From NCBI RefSeq assembly GCF_008298035.1, contig NZ_CP042910.1, positions 4,665,001 to 4,729,000 on the forward strand: a DNA stretch of 64,000 nucleotides, written 5' to 3'. The notes beneath the pieces were generated by a model, which was not told the DNA's origin, did no database searches, and saw only the letters and a program-made list of their open reading frames with translations. Position 1 is the stretch's first letter. Every line of letters starts with the position of its first letter. This DNA is from Gimesia maris (GTDB lineage Bacteria > Planctomycetota > Planctomycetia > Planctomycetales > Planctomycetaceae). Below are positions 35,777 to 42,981 of this stretch, in pieces. A program made the position numbers and the translations under genes.

Positions 35777-37102
35777 TTAACGCTTTACCTTACAGCCGGG
35801 TACCGCAGCTTCGAATTGTTTGACACCGTCATCGGTAACCTGAGTAAAGCTCAACTGCAGTTCTTTCAGGTTTTTCAAAGCTGCGAGTGTCTTCAAACCT
35901 TCATCTGAAATCTCTGTTTTACTCAAATTCAGATACTCCAGCTTCTTGAGCGGCAGCAGCTGCTTCAAACCTGCATCGGTGATCGGAGTTCCTTCCAGGT
36001 TCAGACGATTCAGTTCCGTAAACCCGGAAATGACCTTTAAACCTTGATCTGTCGTTTCTGTCCCCCACAAGCCAAGCCGGGTCAGTTTCTTCAGGTCCTT
36101 GATCTGTTCCAGTCCTTGATCACCAATCATCGACTCATCCAGGTCCAGGTACGTCAGATCGGTCAACCCGGAAAGATACTTCATCCCTTCATCGGTAACC
36201 ACGGTATCCCGCAGATGAAGTGTCTGGAGTTTTTTCATATTCTGAATATTTTCAATCCCCGGATTGCCGACAAAATCCCGCCGCAGATGCAACGACTCCA
36301 TATTTGTCATGTCTTTCAGATACTTCATCCCTTCGTCTGAGATTTCCGTATCATCCAGTTCCAGTGATACCAGATTTTTATCCTTCAGCAACTCCAGAGT
36401 TTCATCAGAAATATTTCTTCCCCAGGTATTCAAACGCTGCAGATTCGGAAGTGCGGCAATATCCTTCATTCCCTCATCCGTTACCTGAGTCGCCTGCACT
36501 TTGAGTACTTTCAGGTTCTTCATCCCTTTAATATGAGGCATTCCCTCATCGTTAATCTCTTTATTAAAGCGCAGATCCAGATCTTTGAGTTCTGGAAACG
36601 CGGCAACCACTTTCAAAGCGTCATTGGTAATGTTGGTAGCACGAAGCGAGAGCACCTGCAGGCCTTGCAGGTCCGACAGATTTTTTACTCCTTCATCTCC
36701 GATCGCAGTACTCTCGAGGCTCAGAAACCACAGTTTATTTTTTTTGCCAATTTCTTCTGTCGAGACATCTGTGAAATTTGGTCCCCAGAGTATCAACCGT
36801 TCCAGGGAAGGCAGACCTGCCAGATGCTTCAGATCTGCATCCTGCGCATTCGTCCCCTTCAGATCCAGAATCAGAACGCGACCATCATCAGACATTCCCA
36901 GTTTGGCATCCAGGTCCTTGAATGCTTTGACTGCTTCTGGTGAGTCTGGCTCAACGGCAGGCTTTTGTGTCGCAGCTTCTGGAGCGGGATCACTTTTCGC
37001 AGAAGTAGCGGCTTTCTCTGGATCAGCAGGGGGAGTACTAGCACTGGGACATCCTGTTAACAGACATAATCCTGCCAGAGAAAGAAATACTCTTGTCTTC
37101 AT
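35777..37102 (-). CDS. Leucine-rich-repeat lipoprotein
   Basis: A lipoprotein of about 441 residues. The signal peptide ends in LCLLTGCPS (lipobox L-T-G-C), followed by an Ala/Pro-rich linker, then about fourteen 24-residue repeats of the type L-x-x-L-x-L-x-x-T-x-I-T-D-E-G-L/M-x-x-L. These resemble the GALA/F-box-like LRRs common in planctomycetes and should form a curved solenoid exposed outside the membrane for protein binding. The ATG at 37102 has AAGGA seven bases upstream and starts the signal peptide; the longer frame to 37159 has neither. Ligand unknown. The gene is divergent from the PQQ-propeller protein gene. Confidence 0.9.
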   Translation of the reverse strand: MKTRVFLSLAGLCLLTGCPSASTPPADPEKAATSAKSDPAPEAATQKPAVEPDSPEAVKAFKDLDAKLGMSDDGRVLILDLKGTNAQDADLKHLAGLPSLERLILWGPNFTDVSTEEIGKKNKLWFLSLESTAIGDEGVKNLSDLQGLQVLSLRATNITNDALKVVAAFPELKDLDLRFNKEINDEGMPHIKGMKNLKVLKVQATQVTDEGMKDIAALPNLQRLNTWGRNISDETLELLKDKNLVSLELDDTEISDEGMKYLKDMTNMESLHLRRDFVGNPGIENIQNMKKLQTLHLRDTVVTDEGMKYLSGLTDLTYLDLDESMIGDQGLEQIKDLKKLTRLGLWGTETTDQGLKVISGFTELNRLNLEGTPITDAGLKQLLPLKKLEYLNLSKTEISDEGLKTLAALKNLKELQLSFTQVTDDGVKQFEAAVPGCKVKR

Positions 37103-37316
37103 CCTGATATCCTTTGTACTGCTCGAACTGTCTCTGTTCCGTGAGTTTTCCAGACGCATTCTATATTCACGGGCTCTAAATGCCGACCAGCTTTCTAAAC
37201 GAAATTCTGCCTGACATCAAAGATTCACCGAACCCTCTTAAGATGCTAACAATGATCCCCAAAATAGAGCCCAGACCGAAACATTGCAATTCAATGACTC
37301 AGTTTTCTGTAACTAC

Positions 37317-37346
37317 TTGCGATTCCGAGACCAAACAGGCTATACT
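37317..37346 (+). promoter_or_regulatory. Candidate promoter for the PQQ-propeller/methyltransferase gene
   Basis: TTGCGA at 37317 and TATACT at 37341 are 18 bases apart, 98 bases before the chosen GTG. The -10 region is part of a small palindrome (TATACT, CAAT, AGTATA). The whole 341-base gap 37103-37443 between the divergent genes holds no convincing small gene. A frame that is open back to 37180 lacks a signal peptide at that end. Confidence 0.4.
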
Positions 37347-37443
37347 CAATAGTATAAACAGACTTCGATATGTTGACTTGGAATTTTGTTCCGTTTACCT
37401 CCCCGGTAAGTTCGATCGCCGCCAGCCATTCAAGGATCTTGAA

Positions 37444-40400
37444 GTGAAACATCGCCTCGCCTCTTCCGCCCTTCTGCTTTTCTGTCTGACCTCCCTATTC
37501 GCGTTTCTTCCTCAGGGAATTCAAGCGAAAGACTGGAATACCTATCTCGCGGGGCGCGAACGTGCGGGAGCCACAACAGACTCGATTTCTCTTCCATTGG
37601 CTCCCGTCTGGAAATATGTCGCTCCCAGCCCACCAAAGATGGGCCAGACCAATCCGGGCGAGCGTGTGATGGAAGGACACGATCTGGAAGCACGCGTTGA
37701 TTTTGATGATGCCTTTCAGGTCGCCATTGCAGACGGACGTGCTTACTTCGGCTCCTCCGTCGATCATCTGATGCGCTGTGTCGATCTGAAGTCAGGCAAG
37801 GAACTCTGGTCTTATTTTACTGGCGGCCCCATTCGACTCTCTCCGACTGTCAGTCAATCTCGGGTCTATTTCGGTTCCGATGATGGATTTGTGTACTGCC
37901 TGGACGCCAGCACGGGAAAAGAAGTCTGGAAGCTGCGGGCCGGGCTGAACGAGGAAATGATTATTGCCCGCGGGGAAATGGTCTCGCGCTGGCCTGTCAG
38001 GACGAATGTCCTGGTCGATGAGGGGATCGCCTATTTTGGTGCCGGCATCTTTCCACACGAAAATATCTATCTGTACGCCGTTGATGCAAAAACCGGAAAT
38101 GTTATCTGGAAAATCGATAACCTCAGTCAGACCTCAGCGGGTCGAAATGAACTTTCTCCCCAGGGATACATTCTGGCCAATGACGAGTTCCTGTTTTTCC
38201 CTTCAGGGCGCTCACTGCCGGCTGCCTTCAATAAAAAAACCGGCGAGGAAGAACACAAACGGTCTTACAGCTGGAGAAGTACTGCCGGCGGAGTCGTGGG
38301 AGGAACTCAGGCTTTGCTCGCGGATGGCCAGATCTATTCCATGGGGGCCCACCATATTCTGGCATTAACACAGGATGAAGGCGACATCGGTTTTGCCTGG
38401 ATCACTGGACAGCAGATGGCGGTTCAGGGAGAGTTCGCTTACCTTGCCACGGGATCTTCGATTCTGAAAGTCAACCGGGGTGAGCACGCTGTGGGATCGC
38501 AGAAAGCTCACAATAATGACATGACCATGAACGGGCTACTTAGAAAACTCCGTAGCCTCAAAGGGAAAAAAGCAGAAGAGGCACGTGCTGAAATCAAAAC
38601 CTTAAAGGAAGAAAATAAAGCGTATGCGAAAGCAGGTGTCATCTGGGAGATCGCAGCCCCTGCCCGCGATTCACTGATTGTAGCCGGTGATAAAGTCATT
38701 GCGGGTGGCGTAGGTCAGGTTCTGATTCTCGACGAAGCCACGGGAAAACTTCGCGAGACTTTAAAAGTCAAAGGACATGCACGTGGGCTGGCAGTTTCTG
38801 AGGGGCAACTGGTGGTCAGCACTTCAGCTGGCGAAGTCATCGGCTATGGCAGTTCGAAGCCTCATCAACCCGCTTCACAAATCACCCCCCTGACAGCGAC
38901 CTCACCCTACCCTGCAGATGAGCTGACCCCTGTCTATCAACAGGCAGCTAAAGATATTTTAGCACACACAAATATTAAAGATGGGTTTTGTCTGGTACTG
39001 GGTGGTGAAGAAGGCCGACTCGCCTATGAACTGGCCCGCAACAGTAATCTGAAAATCTACTGTATCGAACCAGATCCAGCAAAAGTGGAACAGGCTCGGC
39101 AGAAGCTCACCCAGGCAGGTTATTATGGTCATCGCGTGACCGTGCATCAGACCGAACTTTCTCCACTCCCCTATTCACGATACTTCGCGAACCTGATCGT
39201 TTCAGATTCTCTGCTTAAAACGGGACAGATCCCGGGAATCCCCAAAGATATCGCCACACATGTCAAACCACTGGGGGGAATCATCTGCCTGGGCGTTCCT
39301 GCAAATTCACAGACAGAGAATTCCAACAATCATATGGACTGGTTGAAACAGACCGGACTTGCCGAAACATCAAAAATCAAGGATCTTCAGGGTTACGCCA
39401 CACTGATTCGAGGTGCCTTACCGGGTGCAGGCAGCTGGTCCCACCAGTACGGCGATCCGGGTAATACCGCCAGTAGTAAAGACCAGTTGGTGAGAGGTGG
39501 TCTGGGAGTACTCTGGTTTGGAGACCCCGGTGAAAAGAAAATGGTCAACCGTCATGATGGCGCAGTCGGGCCTCTCGCAATTAACGGCCGTCTGTTTATT
39601 CAGGGTGAGAGTACCATTATGGCGTTTGATGCCTACAATGGCCTGTTTCTCTGGGAGCGAGAAAACCCTCAGGCCATTCGTACCGGTGTGTTCCAGAACC
39701 AGAACCCGGGTAATTTGGTCGCCAGCGATGACAGTCTGTTCTTTATGATGAAAGAAAGCTGCTATCAACTGGATGCTGCGACGGGCAAAACGGTCGCCAA
39801 AATCCCCCTGCCTGAGAAACTCAACGATGGCAAACATGAATGGGGTTATCTCGCCTACCAGAATGGACTGATCTTCGGGACCGCCACTACACGCAAGGAA
39901 CTTGAAGCCCGACAGGTGCGCCGCGGTCGCAAAACTGAAGACTCCACAGATGCATTATTCGCCATCGATGTCAAAACCGGAAAACCAGCATGGAGCTATC
40001 AGGGCAAAAACATCGCCCATCACACGATCGCCATCGGACCGGAAGCGGCTTACTTCATTGACAGTTCGATCACCAGCGAGCAACGTGCTGAGATTTTGCG
40101 TCAGGACAAATCTCATCTGGAAAAACTGACTGGCAAAGAACGTGAAATCGCCGAAGACCGACTCAAAAAACAGGATCTGCGGCTGGCAGTTGCACTCGAC
40201 ATCAAAACCGGTAAGAAACTCTGGTCCAAACCTGTCGACGTGACAGATTGCAGCGAAATCGGGATCGGCGGTGGAAAGCTGACATTACTGTACCAGAACA
40301 ATGTACTGCTGCTCTGTGGAGCCAATGCCAACGGTCATTACTGGAAACAGTTTATCGCCGGTGACTTTTCCCGCCGACGCCTGGTGGCCCTCAATGCCGG

Positions 40401-41397
40401 CGATGGTGCCCTGCTTTGGAAAAAAGACGCCAACTATCGTCATCGCCCGATCGTTGTCGGTGATAAAATTATCGCAGAACCCTGGTCCTACGATCTTTAC
40501 ACTGGCATTCAACATACACGCAAACACCCCCTGACCGGACAGGAAGTTCCCTGGAGCATCATGCGGGAAGGTCATCATTGCGGCATGCTGTCTGCCTCGG
40601 AAAATCTGCTGATGTTCCGTTCCGGCTACACAGGCTTCTACGACCTCGAAAAAGACGCCGGCACCCGGCACTTCGCCGGCCATCGTACCGGCTGCTGGAT
40701 CAATGCCATCCCTGCCAACGGACTGGTAATGATTCCCGAATCCTCTGCAGGCTGTGTCTGTCTGTTCTCGATCTCTTCGACCATTGTGCTGGAACCGCGC
40801 GAAGAACGGACTCACTGGACGATCTTCAGTTCTGTCGGCCCCAAAACTCCGGTCCAGCATATGGCATTGAACATGGGTGCCCCCGGTGACCGCCGCGACG
40901 CGCATGGGACAGTCTGGATGGCTTATCCCCGACCCAGGCCAAGTCGGGAAACCGGTCTCGACTTCAAATTTGATATCAAACCCCAGTTCAGTGAAGGGGG
41001 AGGTTATGAGAGCCTCAATGAAATCACTCATCCTGTCAAAAACGCCGAACCGGGCTGGGTCTATACATCCTGGGCCAAAGGGCTGAAGAAATGTACGATT
41101 CCTCTACTGGGGAAAAGCGATTCTCCCACGAACTATACGGTGGAGCTCTCCTTCTCAGGCCTGGAACCGGTCTCTTTAAACAATCAGCAGGAACCACCAC
41201 TGTATGAGATCAAACTGCAGGGAAAAGTTGTTCAGAAAGACTTTAACCCACAGACTACTAAGCCAACCCAGACACTCAAATTCGATGGAGTTTCCGTTAA
41301 AGATAATCTACAGCTCGAACTGGTTCCGCAAAATGAATCAGCGCGGCAGACACCTGCAGCTTTAAGTGGAATTGAAATTATTCGCTCAGATTCATAG
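37444..41397 (+). CDS. Secreted PQQ-type beta-propeller protein with internal methyltransferase-like domain
   Basis: About 1317 residues. A signal peptide (LASSALLLFCLTSLFAFLPQG) leads to a first PQQ-like propeller with repeats such as GKELWSYFTGGP and GKEVWKLRAG, to about residue 480. Residues 480-640 look like a Rossmann methyltransferase: FCLVLGGEEGRLAYELA (SAM-loop type), IYCIEPDPAKVEQARQKL, then FANLIVSDSLL. A second propeller runs from about 650 to 1210, and a C-terminal beta-sandwich ends the protein. An exported SAM-dependent enzyme would lack cofactor, so the middle domain may be inactive. The GTG at 37444 has AAGGA seven bases upstream; the frame opens at 37180 but its first 88 residues show no signal. 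Confidence 0.8.
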   Translation: MKHRLASSALLLFCLTSLFAFLPQGIQAKDWNTYLAGRERAGATTDSISLPLAPVWKYVAPSPPKMGQTNPGERVMEGHDLEARVDFDDAFQVAIADGRAYFGSSVDHLMRCVDLKSGKELWSYFTGGPIRLSPTVSQSRVYFGSDDGFVYCLDASTGKEVWKLRAGLNEEMIIARGEMVSRWPVRTNVLVDEGIAYFGAGIFPHENIYLYAVDAKTGNVIWKIDNLSQTSAGRNELSPQGYILANDEFLFFPSGRSLPAAFNKKTGEEEHKRSYSWRSTAGGVVGGTQALLADGQIYSMGAHHILALTQDEGDIGFAWITGQQMAVQGEFAYLATGSSILKVNRGEHAVGSQKAHNNDMTMNGLLRKLRSLKGKKAEEARAEIKTLKEENKAYAKAGVIWEIAAPARDSLIVAGDKVIAGGVGQVLILDEATGKLRETLKVKGHARGLAVSEGQLVVSTSAGEVIGYGSSKPHQPASQITPLTATSPYPADELTPVYQQAAKDILAHTNIKDGFCLVLGGEEGRLAYELARNSNLKIYCIEPDPAKVEQARQKLTQAGYYGHRVTVHQTELSPLPYSRYFANLIVSDSLLKTGQIPGIPKDIATHVKPLGGIICLGVPANSQTENSNNHMDWLKQTGLAETSKIKDLQGYATLIRGALPGAGSWSHQYGDPGNTASSKDQLVRGGLGVLWFGDPGEKKMVNRHDGAVGPLAINGRLFIQGESTIMAFDAYNGLFLWERENPQAIRTGVFQNQNPGNLVASDDSLFFMMKESCYQLDAATGKTVAKIPLPEKLNDGKHEWGYLAYQNGLIFGTATTRKELEARQVRRGRKTEDSTDALFAIDVKTGKPAWSYQGKNIAHHTIAIGPEAAYFIDSSITSEQRAEILRQDKSHLEKLTGKEREIAEDRLKKQDLRLAVALDIKTGKKLWSKPVDVTDCSEIGIGGGKLTLLYQNNVLLLCGANANGHYWKQFIAGDFSRRRLVALNAGDGALLWKKDANYRHRPIVVGDKIIAEPWSYDLYTGIQHTRKHPLTGQEVPWSIMREGHHCGMLSASENLLMFRSGYTGFYDLEKDAGTRHFAGHRTGCWINAIPANGLVMIPESSAGCVCLFSISSTIVLEPREERTHWTIFSSVGPKTPVQHMALNMGAPGDRRDAHGTVWMAYPRPRPSRETGLDFKFDIKPQFSEGGGYESLNEITHPVKNAEPGWVYTSWAKGLKKCTIPLLGKSDSPTNYTVELSFSGLEPVSLNNQQEPPLYEIKLQGKVVQKDFNPQTTKPTQTLKFDGVSVKDNLQLELVPQNESARQTPAALSGIEIIRSDS

Positions 41398-41449
41398 ACT
41401 GGCCTTAGATACATCTCTTCTGCCCGCTCTATACTTCAAGCGAGATCAT

Positions 41450-42250
41450 GTGAAATATCACCTTAACAGCAAATCAGCCGTTTTCTGTCTGGTCCTCATT
41501 CTGACTGGCTTCAGCAGGTTGTCTTCCGTCCAGGCGCTGGAACTGACTCTGGAACCGCCGGGAGATCGGGAATTTGTACGCGATCTCGCCGGCATGCTCG
41601 ATGAGCCGACCACAAAAAAGATCAAAGAGCTTTGCGATAAGCTGCTCACAGACAAAGCGACCCCGATCATTGTGGTTACGATCGATTCGATGGCCGAGTA
41701 CGGCGGTGCGGACATGCGGATTGAGACCTTCGCCACGATCCTCTTTAATCAATGGCAGATCGGACATGCCAAGCTCGGAGATCAGGACTGGAATACCGGT
41801 ATCCTGCTGCTCGTGTCCAAAAATGATCGCAAGGCCCGCATCGAACTGGGAGCTGGCTGGGGACGTCGTGAAGACGAACAATGCCGACAGATCATGGATG
41901 AATACATCATTCCCCATTTCAAACAGGGGCAGTTTGACCAGGGAATCCTCGTAGGGGTCGAAGCACTCGATAAAATGGCACGAAAACTGGAACTGCCCAC
42001 TAAACCGGTTTCTCCCTGGACCTACGTCATTATGGCAGTAGCCGCTGGTCTGGTCATTTTTACGGTCGTCTCCCTTATCCGTCGTGGCTCCAGTGGCTGG
42101 GCCTGGCTGTTCTGGGGAGTCGTCTTTGCGGTCATTGGCACCATTCTATACCAGATGCTCAATAACAGAGGAGGTGGTGGCGGAGGCTTTGGTGGTGGTT
42201 CCTTCGGCGGTGGTTTCTCCGGTGGCGGGGGCGCGACGGGCTCATGGTAA
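41450..42250 (+). CDS. Exported TPM-domain protein with Gly-rich tail (YgcG-like)
   Basis: About 266 residues. A signal sequence (SAVFCLVLILTGFS) precedes a TPM domain: FVRDLAGMLDEPTTKKIKELCDKL, VVTIDSMAEYGGADMRIETFA, ILLLVSKNDRKARIELGAGW. Two membrane segments follow at about 180-230, and the C-terminus is GGGGGGFGGGSFGGGFSGGGGATGSW, the usual ending of YgcG-type proteins. TPM domains are linked to phosphatase activity in plant thylakoids and photosystem II repair, but the bacterial role is unclear. I start at the GTG at 41450 since the longer frame begins inside the preceding gene; its ribosome-binding site is weak. A second TPM gene follows 53 bases later. Confidence 0.82.
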   Translation: MKYHLNSKSAVFCLVLILTGFSRLSSVQALELTLEPPGDREFVRDLAGMLDEPTTKKIKELCDKLLTDKATPIIVVTIDSMAEYGGADMRIETFATILFNQWQIGHAKLGDQDWNTGILLLVSKNDRKARIELGAGWGRREDEQCRQIMDEYIIPHFKQGQFDQGILVGVEALDKMARKLELPTKPVSPWTYVIMAVAAGLVIFTVVSLIRRGSSGWAWLFWGVVFAVIGTILYQMLNNRGGGGGGFGGGSFGGGFSGGGGATGSW

Positions 42251-42303
42251 TTCCCGACCACTCATTCCCATACATGCTCCAGCCTTAAGAAAAGATTCAA
42301 TTC

Positions 42304-42981
42304 ATGCAAAGCGCATTTAACTATTTAAATGAAGAACAACAGCAACAGGTGGAGCAGGCCGTCGTCGATGCGGAACAGCAGACATCCTGTGAAATCGTAC
42401 CCGTCATCGCAACATCCTCAGGAAGGTACGACCGACCGGAAGATGTCGTCGGGCTCTGGTTGACCATCATCACTGCACTTTGTCTCTGGTTTTTCTTCCC
42501 CCGCAACGGCGGTCAGGCAGGAGACTGGGGCGGCATGCCCGTGATCGTTGAACTGTTTCTGGCTGCGATTCTGCTTGCCCTCGCATTCATTCTGGGAGCA
42601 ATCGCCGGAAGTCGGATTGGCTGGCTCAGACGACTTTTCACTCCCCGTCTTCAGATGCAGGATGAAGTCGCCGCGCGTGCCCGGGAAATCTTTTTCGATA
42701 AACGGATTCACCATACCGAAGGGGGCACGGGCATCCTGATCTACATCTCCCTGTTCGAGCATATGGCAGTCGCACTGGCTGACCAGTCCGTCATTGATAA
42801 ACTCGGACAACCTTTCCTCGATCAAATCTGCCGGAAACTCACCACGGGACTGCATGCTGGAAACCCAACGACCACACTCTGTGAAATAATCCTGGAAATC
42901 GGCAGCCAGGCTTCTACACCTCTTCCCCGTGCCTCAGACGATCAGAATGAGCTACATGACGCCCTGGTTCTGATTGATTGA
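42304..42981 (+). CDS. Membrane TPM-domain protein
   Basis: A 225-residue protein whose TPM domain is interrupted by a membrane hairpin. The N-terminus NEEQQQQVEQAVVDAEQQTSCEIVPVIATSSGRY is the first half of the domain. Two hydrophobic segments lie at about 48-65 and 80-102. The second half is ARAREIFFDKRIHHTEGGTGILIYISLFEHMAVALAD. This layout matches the small TPM proteins often encoded beside YgcG-like proteins, as here. The two products probably act together at the cytoplasmic membrane. Function unknown. Confidence 0.8.
   Translation: MQSAFNYLNEEQQQQVEQAVVDAEQQTSCEIVPVIATSSGRYDRPEDVVGLWLTIITALCLWFFFPRNGGQAGDWGGMPVIVELFLAAILLALAFILGAIAGSRIGWLRRLFTPRLQMQDEVAARAREIFFDKRIHHTEGGTGILIYISLFEHMAVALADQSVIDKLGQPFLDQICRKLTTGLHAGNPTTTLCEIILEIGSQASTPLPRASDDQNELHDALVLID

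Follow-up and report, generated by a model that had tools for sequence, protein, structure and literature searches.

An exported propeller / methyltransferase-fold / propeller protein of Gimesia maris, its altered SAM motif and its large family

The window analysed here is a stretch of 64,000 nucleotides from the planctomycete Gimesia maris (contig NZ_CP042910.1, positions 4,665,001 to 4,729,000 of the forward strand), and our subject is the gene at window positions 37444 to 41397, which encodes an apparently exported protein of 1317 amino acids (aa) with a methyltransferase fold set between two propellers. The open frame runs from 37180 to 41397 on the + strand and the coding sequence begins at the GTG codon at 37444. 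The gene lies at 4.70 Mb of the one-contig, 7.8 Mb genome, and its closest named record comes from a Gimesia metagenome assembly, where it is 91% identical. The parts of the gene, in window coordinates, are as follows; SAM is S-adenosylmethionine, AF2 is AlphaFold2, PQQ is pyrroloquinoline quinone, and pN/pS is the ratio of non-synonymous to synonymous differences.

37444 to 41397, +: coding sequence of the whole 1317-aa protein, exported, with both propellers and the methyltransferase-fold domain
37432 to 37436, +: Shine-Dalgarno-like AAGGA, seven bases before the GTG at 37444, read directly
37444 to 37527, +: signal peptide, residues 1-28, from the sequence and its presence in homologues
37528 to 38853, +: propeller 1, residues 29-470, PQQ_2-like, from Pfam, the AF2 model and Foldseek of the whole model
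38476 to 38628, +: two-helix insertion in propeller 1, residues 345-395, from AF2 secondary structure; it has the highest mean entropy among the mature segments compared
38875 to 39414, +: residues 478-657, the domain with the class I methyltransferase fold, beta6-beta7 hairpin included, from profile, AF2, Foldseek and VIA
38995 to 39024, +: residues 518-527 (VLGGEEGRLA), SAM motif I in altered form with Glu in place of the middle Gly, from the alignment
39067 to 39069, +: motif II acid E542, with D/E in 102 of the 105 nearest homologues
39415 to 40923, +: propeller 2 (residues 658-1160), where conservation is highest, from Pfam, AF2, entropy and pN/pS
40579 to 40761, +: four-cysteine motif C1046 / C1084 / C1104-x-C1106, in 67 of 67 aligned rows and 127 of 130 family frames
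40924 to 41394, +: C-terminal domain, residues 1161-1317, probably malectin-like, from alignment to a paralogue tail with Pfam Malectin

The GTG codon opens a typical signal peptide, MKHRLASSALLLFCLTSLFAFLPQGIQA. Hydropathy was scored by a simple rule that does not distinguish Sec from Tat signals (a segment of at least 1.8 on the Kyte-Doolittle scale over 10 residues before the mature start), and by this rule a hydrophobic N-terminal segment is present in 59 of the 64 rows with upstream sequence, out of 67 aligned rows including the target, compared with 84 of 1340 internal control 40-mers. Other members of the family behave in the same way: 28 of 30 pass, and the end of the locus truncates the frames of both misses and of one member that passes. 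All seven paralogues in the same genome carry an apparent signal peptide, and in one of them, P164, the methyltransferase-propeller half has its own signal even though propeller 1 sits in the neighbouring gene. Because the exported paralogues, including the split P164 and the permuted P165, also carry signals, a false signal peptide is an unlikely explanation for the target, and the export proposed in a preliminary description of this DNA is upheld. The protein would leave the cytoplasm via this peptide and work in the periplasm or at the cell envelope.

The domain order in that description holds up as well. A Pfam search with the whole protein matches PQQ_2 (3.6e-31) and PQQ, with PQQ-type repeats on both sides of a match to Methyltransf_25. 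Two reduced alignments, A1 with 50 and A2 with 59 of the 67 rows, were obtained by removing near-copies by eye, and an AF2 model of residues 29-1162 from a 50-row alignment has a mean predicted local distance difference test score (pLDDT) of 84.4 and a predicted template modelling score (pTM) of 0.86. In the whole-protein search the methyltransferase match falls below its cut-off of 27 (5.1e-5, 24.3 bits), whereas residues 478-664 alone score above it (28.1 bits, 3.3e-6), and 55 of 59 orthologous domains match Methyltransf_25 at E<=0.01. A search with the profile of these 59 domains picks up 3dlc, a putative SAM methyltransferase, at 1.9e-14. Modelled alone, the middle domain has a mean pLDDT of 93.3 and seven strands, including the beta6-beta7 hairpin; Foldseek ranks 3dlc first among the matches listed (E 3.2e-12, TM-score 0.72 on the query), and VIA-align superimposes 170 residues on it with a Z-score of 17.6 and a root mean square deviation of 2.8. 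The Rossmann methyltransferase-like domain noticed earlier is thus, as modelled, a complete class I methyltransferase fold, with the seven strands of class I SAM-dependent methyltransferases such as 3dlc, RebM (3bus) and SpnF (4pne). It differs from these enzymes in being exported, in having Glu for the middle Gly of motif I, and in that the adenine-contact acid is not conserved across its family. A weak match to PADLOC mads_2 (E 7.5e-6, 23 bits), the only one obtained, lies wholly within the methyltransferase domain (residues 499-630), and we do not take it as a sign of a defence system.

The look at the SAM pocket that had been proposed together with structure prediction finds motif I altered and the motif II acid kept. 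Specifically, motif I of the target reads VLGGEEGRLA, where GGEEG takes the place of the canonical GxGxG. The middle Gly position holds Glu in 54 and Gly in 8 of the 67 rows, while the third Gly (Gly524) is found in 67 of 67. The 105 distinct domains that we call the nearest homologues are those that BLAST, given eight family references, matches best to the target's orthologue, some of them distant; counting the target, GxGxG is present in 10 of them and absent from 95, whereas [GD]xxxG and the motif II acid are each present in 102. Over all family domains GxGxG occurs in 20 of 135. The acid at the end of beta-2, E542 in the target, is at the ribose-contact position of SAM enzymes. The acid after beta-3, which contacts adenine in such enzymes, was mapped via the 3dlc alignment and is D/E in only 34 of the 67 rows; since the target itself has a Glu there (E571), this variability speaks about the family and not about the target.

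How the domain is conserved bears on the idea that it is a structural spacer: an ancient captured enzyme that has lost ligand binding and is retained for folding or domain packing. Such a history would fit the degenerate motif I in four of the seven paralogues of the same genome, the at least eight changes of GxGxG state on a tree of 53 domains (discussed below), and a rate of evolution faster than that of propeller 2 and most of propeller 1; the conserved YFAN and KPxGG could then be packing contacts. However, conservation is higher in the former pocket loops than elsewhere in the domain: at pocket positions, which we picked from the canonical topology, mean column entropy is 1.37 as compared with 1.95 for the remainder (p 0.004), with means of 1.03 for motif I, 1.13 for motif II, 1.16 for the end of beta-4 and 2.62 for the end of beta-3. 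The retention of the motif II acid (102 of 105) and of Gly524 (67 of 67), and the persistence of paralogues with a canonical motif, also speak against a spacer, which we consider rather unlikely though still a serious contender. In pN/pS the methyltransferase domain, at 0.25, lies above propeller 2 (0.05) and residues 29-344 of propeller 1 (0.14); three of the 16 comparisons behind these values repeat a genome, leaving at most 13 distinct, and synonymous sites are near saturation. On these sequence comparisons the domain is under purifying selection, weaker than that on propeller 2 and most of propeller 1. The earlier suggestion that it binds another ligand or is a structural relic therefore divides in two: the altered SAM motif fits it, but a pure relic is weakened by the conserved motif I, motif II and beta-4-end loops and by the purifying selection.

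The opposite possibility is that the protein is a true extracytoplasmic enzyme using SAM, or a SAM analogue, that is exported or salvaged. Its best case is made by relatives: the exported paralogue P162 has a perfect DVGCGDG and scores 37.3 bits against the Methyltransf_25 cut-off of 27, P161 has GTGSG, P164 has GIGEG, a permuted homologue has GSGDG, and the target keeps its Glu at the adenine-contact position. The target's own GGEEG, the Glu at the middle Gly position in most rows and the incomplete conservation of the adenine-contact acid all count against it. SAM is not expected outside the cytoplasm, and no phrase that we tried for periplasmic SAM or periplasmic methyltransferases occurs in the open-licence papers searched. 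We regard a SAM enzyme as quite improbable for the target.

The strictest feature lies in propeller 2. All 67 rows agree at C1046, C1084, C1104 and C1106, and likewise at H1044, H1045 and H1076. Of the 130 family frames spanning this part, 127 show the pattern C-x(25-50)-C-x(14-26)-CxC, and the other three are cut short within the motif by the end of the fetched DNA. This count is profile-based, leaves out matches under 55 profile positions and is not fully deduplicated, as paralogues from the target's genome can recur. The motif is retained in paralogues in which the SAM motif is gone, which indicates that selection is stricter on propeller 2 than on the methyltransferase site. By alignment, then, the four-cysteine motif qualifies as the hallmark of the family. 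The C-terminal domain (residues 1161-1317) has no Pfam match of its own, and residues 1228-1315 align to the tail of a paralogue from the same genome in which Pfam finds Malectin, so that it is probably malectin-like.

Could the protein simply be a quinoprotein dehydrogenase, or a BamB-like factor of outer-membrane assembly, with an extra domain? It shares blade repeats and the propeller fold with the PQQ-like superfamily of BamB, PQQ alcohol dehydrogenases and tetrathionate hydrolase, and also export, a trait of the known members. The Pfam matches to PQQ_2 and PQQ fit such a protein, and so do the Foldseek results for the whole model, in which BamB and tetrathionate hydrolase head the matches listed and PQQ alcohol dehydrogenases rank below them. 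Curated models are nevertheless far from satisfied: BamB (TIGR03300) scores 61.7 bits against a cut-off of 285.2, PQQ alcohol dehydrogenase (TIGR03075) 55.9 against 480.05, and the empty quinoprotein model (TIGR04528) 52.4 against 650. Nowhere in the protein is there a vicinal Cys-Cys, whose disulfide near PQQ is a feature of PQQ alcohol dehydrogenases. The target is further set apart from the superfamily by its four-cysteine motif and by having a pair of propellers on a single chain, separated by a methyltransferase fold. Tetrathionate hydrolase (6l8a, Foldseek E 6.2e-19), an enzyme of the PQQ-like propeller type that is active outside the cytoplasm and uses no PQQ, has a single propeller, lacks the methyltransferase domain and is about 13% identical to the target. 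The unusual dehydrogenase suggested earlier thus finds no backing in the TIGR03075 score or the cysteines, and we think a quinoprotein or BamB-like role very unlikely. PQQ synthesis (TIGR02111) was matched in none of 21 genomes, and control genomes were likewise without a match. A proteome study of the planctomycete Tuwongella immobilis (PMC8567305) does report 28 'BamB' paralogues of 43-193 kDa, a point in favour of a BamB-like protein, and these paralogues may include the family of the target.

The arrangement of domains is not a peculiarity of one gene. A scan of named genomes returned 82 relatives, of which 80 loci were kept, mostly from metagenome assemblies recorded as Planctomycetota or Verrucomicrobiota, in which mis-binned contigs are possible; the 67-row alignment leaves out 14 of the 80 loci as cut or weak, and its 67th row is the target. 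The target's own genome holds at least eight members, the target and the paralogues P161-P167 (loci L161-L167), weaker matches not being counted. The paralogues share with the target an apparent signal peptide, the methyltransferase-fold domain and the four-cysteine propeller 2, and GxGxG is present in three of them (P162, P161 and P164) and degenerate in four. The oddity of the domain order is accordingly real but not a one-off, and by sequence comparison the propeller / methyltransferase-fold / propeller arrangement defines a large family with canonical and degenerate SAM motifs among its exported members. The tree of 53 domains, made with the motif I columns omitted, was a quick search with 22 of 50 inner branches open and several long branches, so that its count of state changes is approximate.

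Two kinds of rearranged members were seen. In P165 (L165:3855-6905, -) and in L026:810-4769 (+) the domains are permuted, the methyltransferase coming first and propeller 2 and then propeller 1 after it, as opposed to the order propeller 1, methyltransferase, propeller 2 of the target, and the member in L026 is the one with the canonical GSGDG. P164 (L164:4775-9260, -) is split into two adjoining exported genes, one with propeller 1 alone and the other with a laminin-G and a purple-acid-phosphatase-N/fn3-like domain added to the methyltransferase domain and propeller 2.

Clustering of the neighbours of the 80 loci and the window revealed an exported protein, here called A3. It has CxVPVFRYALE near the mature N-terminus, CxCxVKxxNPGxD and, in some members, a His-rich tail; there was no Pfam match in the two members scanned, no NCBIfam match in the one member scanned, and no match of the A3 profile to sequences of the Protein Data Bank. 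In L028:4498-5820 (-) and L041:4504-5715 (-) the A3 proteins combine a His-rich tail with a C-terminal transmembrane-like segment, which suggests possible metal binding and membrane anchoring. In 47 loci the gene has 1.5 kb or more of flanking DNA on either side; A3 is present in 22 of these, and in 19 it lies no more than 500 bp from the gene. Its orientation in all 25 loci that hold it is upstream divergent in 13, downstream co-directional in 11 and upstream co-directional in 1.

Adjacency was the route by which A3 was discovered and is not an independent test, and presence or absence across genomes is a fairer one, although few candidates were scored per genome and single presences or absences are soft. 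Among 244 planctomycete genomes 44 have a family match and 36 have A3: all 36 are inside the 44, and none of the 200 family-negative genomes has A3. By genus, the same sample has the family in 32 and A3 in 25 of 172. In a second phylum, for which the sample of 145 was built around a genome recorded as Verrucomicrobiales, nine genomes have a family match and eleven have A3; all nine are inside the eleven, and A3 occurs in 2 of the 136 family-negative genomes. A3 is also found in 10 of 12 Verrucomicrobiota-recorded genomes with a close homologue, as compared with 10 of 144 in the sample minus its centre. Finally, of 59 relatives 42 lie outside the genus, and here 11 have both, one has the methyltransferase match only and 30 have neither. 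The Fisher values for co-occurrence are 1e-35 in planctomycetes, 9e-13 in the second phylum and 3e-9 in the outside-genus relatives, calculated as if genomes were independent when they are in fact related.

In the target's genome (G000) and two others of the same genus (G004 and G012), A3 heads an operon with the order A3-FtsX-LolD-ModA-ModB-ModC-MoaD-MoeB.

L179:9081-16816 (G000:C1, about 3.28 Mb), and also L200 and L201 (G004, G012): A3 operon

The genes following A3 are those of an FtsX-type permease, a LolD-type ATPase, a ModA-like binding protein, a ModB-like permease, a ModC-like ATPase, a MoaD-like sulfur carrier and a MoeB/ThiF-type adenylyltransferase. The ModA model scores 104 bits against an NCBIfam cut-off of 62.5, while the ModB, ModC, LolD, MoaD and MoeB models match under their NCBIfam cut-offs, so that these names give the kind of protein and not its exact function. 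The ModA-like protein, at 544 aa, is more than twice the length of the 217-position model. All eight MoaD-like sequences listed end in GG, and at four loci in other genomes (L029, L077, L090 and L181) the propeller gene itself adjoins Mod, MoaD or MoeB genes. The molybdenum/tungsten link drawn from these ModABC-, MoaD- and MoeB-like neighbours is suggestive only. Aldehyde ferredoxin oxidoreductase was considered as the tungsten enzyme and rejected, having no match in the 17 genomes of the genus (G000-G016) among the 59; outside the genus it is only weakly associated, with the methyltransferase match at p 0.013 and with A3 at 0.034, compared with 2.8e-9 for the methyltransferase match and A3.

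The genes next to the target itself are of other kinds. Directly 3' of it, at window positions 41366-42981 (+), are two TPM-domain genes, and the first frame, if read from its earliest GTG, shares 32 bases with the end of the target gene. On the other side, at 35777-37159 (-), is a divergent gene for a leucine-rich-repeat protein with an LTGC motif that we take to be a lipoprotein-type signal; a leucine-rich-repeat gene is also directly upstream of the family gene in L021, L022 and L023. In the clustering of the 80 loci and the window, neither the downstream TPM genes nor the upstream leucine-rich-repeat gene are family-wide neighbours, whereas A3 and Mod genes are.

Our tentative reading, in which our confidence falls a little short of even, is that the target is an exported, probably non-SAM pseudo-methyltransferase in an envelope pair with A3 that handles metal or sulfur. 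Propeller 2 would be the working part, with a metal ion or redox-active thiol site formed by C1046, C1084, C1104 and C1106 and perhaps the conserved histidines, and A3 would deliver metal or sulfur to it or exchange them with it. The methyltransferase-fold domain would no longer methylate and might serve as a ligand-sensing or docking module for a non-SAM partner. Metal or sulfur chemistry is proposed because of the cysteines and the neighbouring genes, and the extension of this link through the ModABC-, MoaD- and MoeB-like proteins to molybdenum/tungsten or sulfur-carrier chemistry is the least certain step.

Several observations do not sit easily with a pseudo-methyltransferase paired with A3. 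The helical insertion of propeller 1 (pN/pS 0.25) and residues 397-470 (0.27) evolve as fast as the methyltransferase domain. Since 10 of the 105 nearest homologues and 3 of the 7 paralogues retain GxGxG, binding of SAM or S-adenosylhomocysteine is still conceivable for the family. The four cysteines, being periplasmic, could simply form disulfides. In its own genome the target, at 4.70 Mb, is far from the A3 operon at 3.28 Mb and not in a cluster with it. The association with A3 is with the whole family and not with the target's orthologue alone. It also has exceptions: inside the genus G010 has the methyltransferase match only and G015 has A3 only, and G033 has the methyltransferase match only. 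A3 is missing from 8 of the 44 family-positive planctomycete genomes and the family match from 2 of the 11 A3-positive genomes of the second phylum, where 'family-positive' means a profile match at E<=1e-20 that the propellers alone can give, so that the weakest matches may lack the methyltransferase domain. MoaA, tried as a marker for molybdenum-cofactor synthesis, occurs in 57 of the 59 relatives and was rejected as a discriminator, which means that this synthesis does not track the target gene.

In a bolder form the pairing with A3 would amount to an envelope system of two proteins, so far undescribed and shared by planctomycetes and a second phylum. Outside the cytoplasm the captured methyltransferase fold would sense or hold some nucleotide other than SAM, or else a cofactor linked to molybdenum/tungsten or to sulfur, and the FtsX/LolD-type transporter together with a dedicated ModABC-MoaD-MoeB set would serve it. 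As a whole this seems to us doubtful.

Among the matches listed in a search of open-licence papers we found no description of the fusion or of A3, which does not show that none exists; the fusion family is large and uncharacterised. Methyltransferase folds are normally tied to cytoplasmic SAM, and a large exported family that has the fold throughout, but an intact SAM motif in only some of its members, offers a test of the role of the fold where SAM is not expected. Given the strong co-occurrence with A3 in two phyla, proteins whose names so far reflect nothing but their PQQ- or BamB-like repeats would become part of a two-component system that can be tested and that has links to a sulfur carrier and to transport of the molybdate type.

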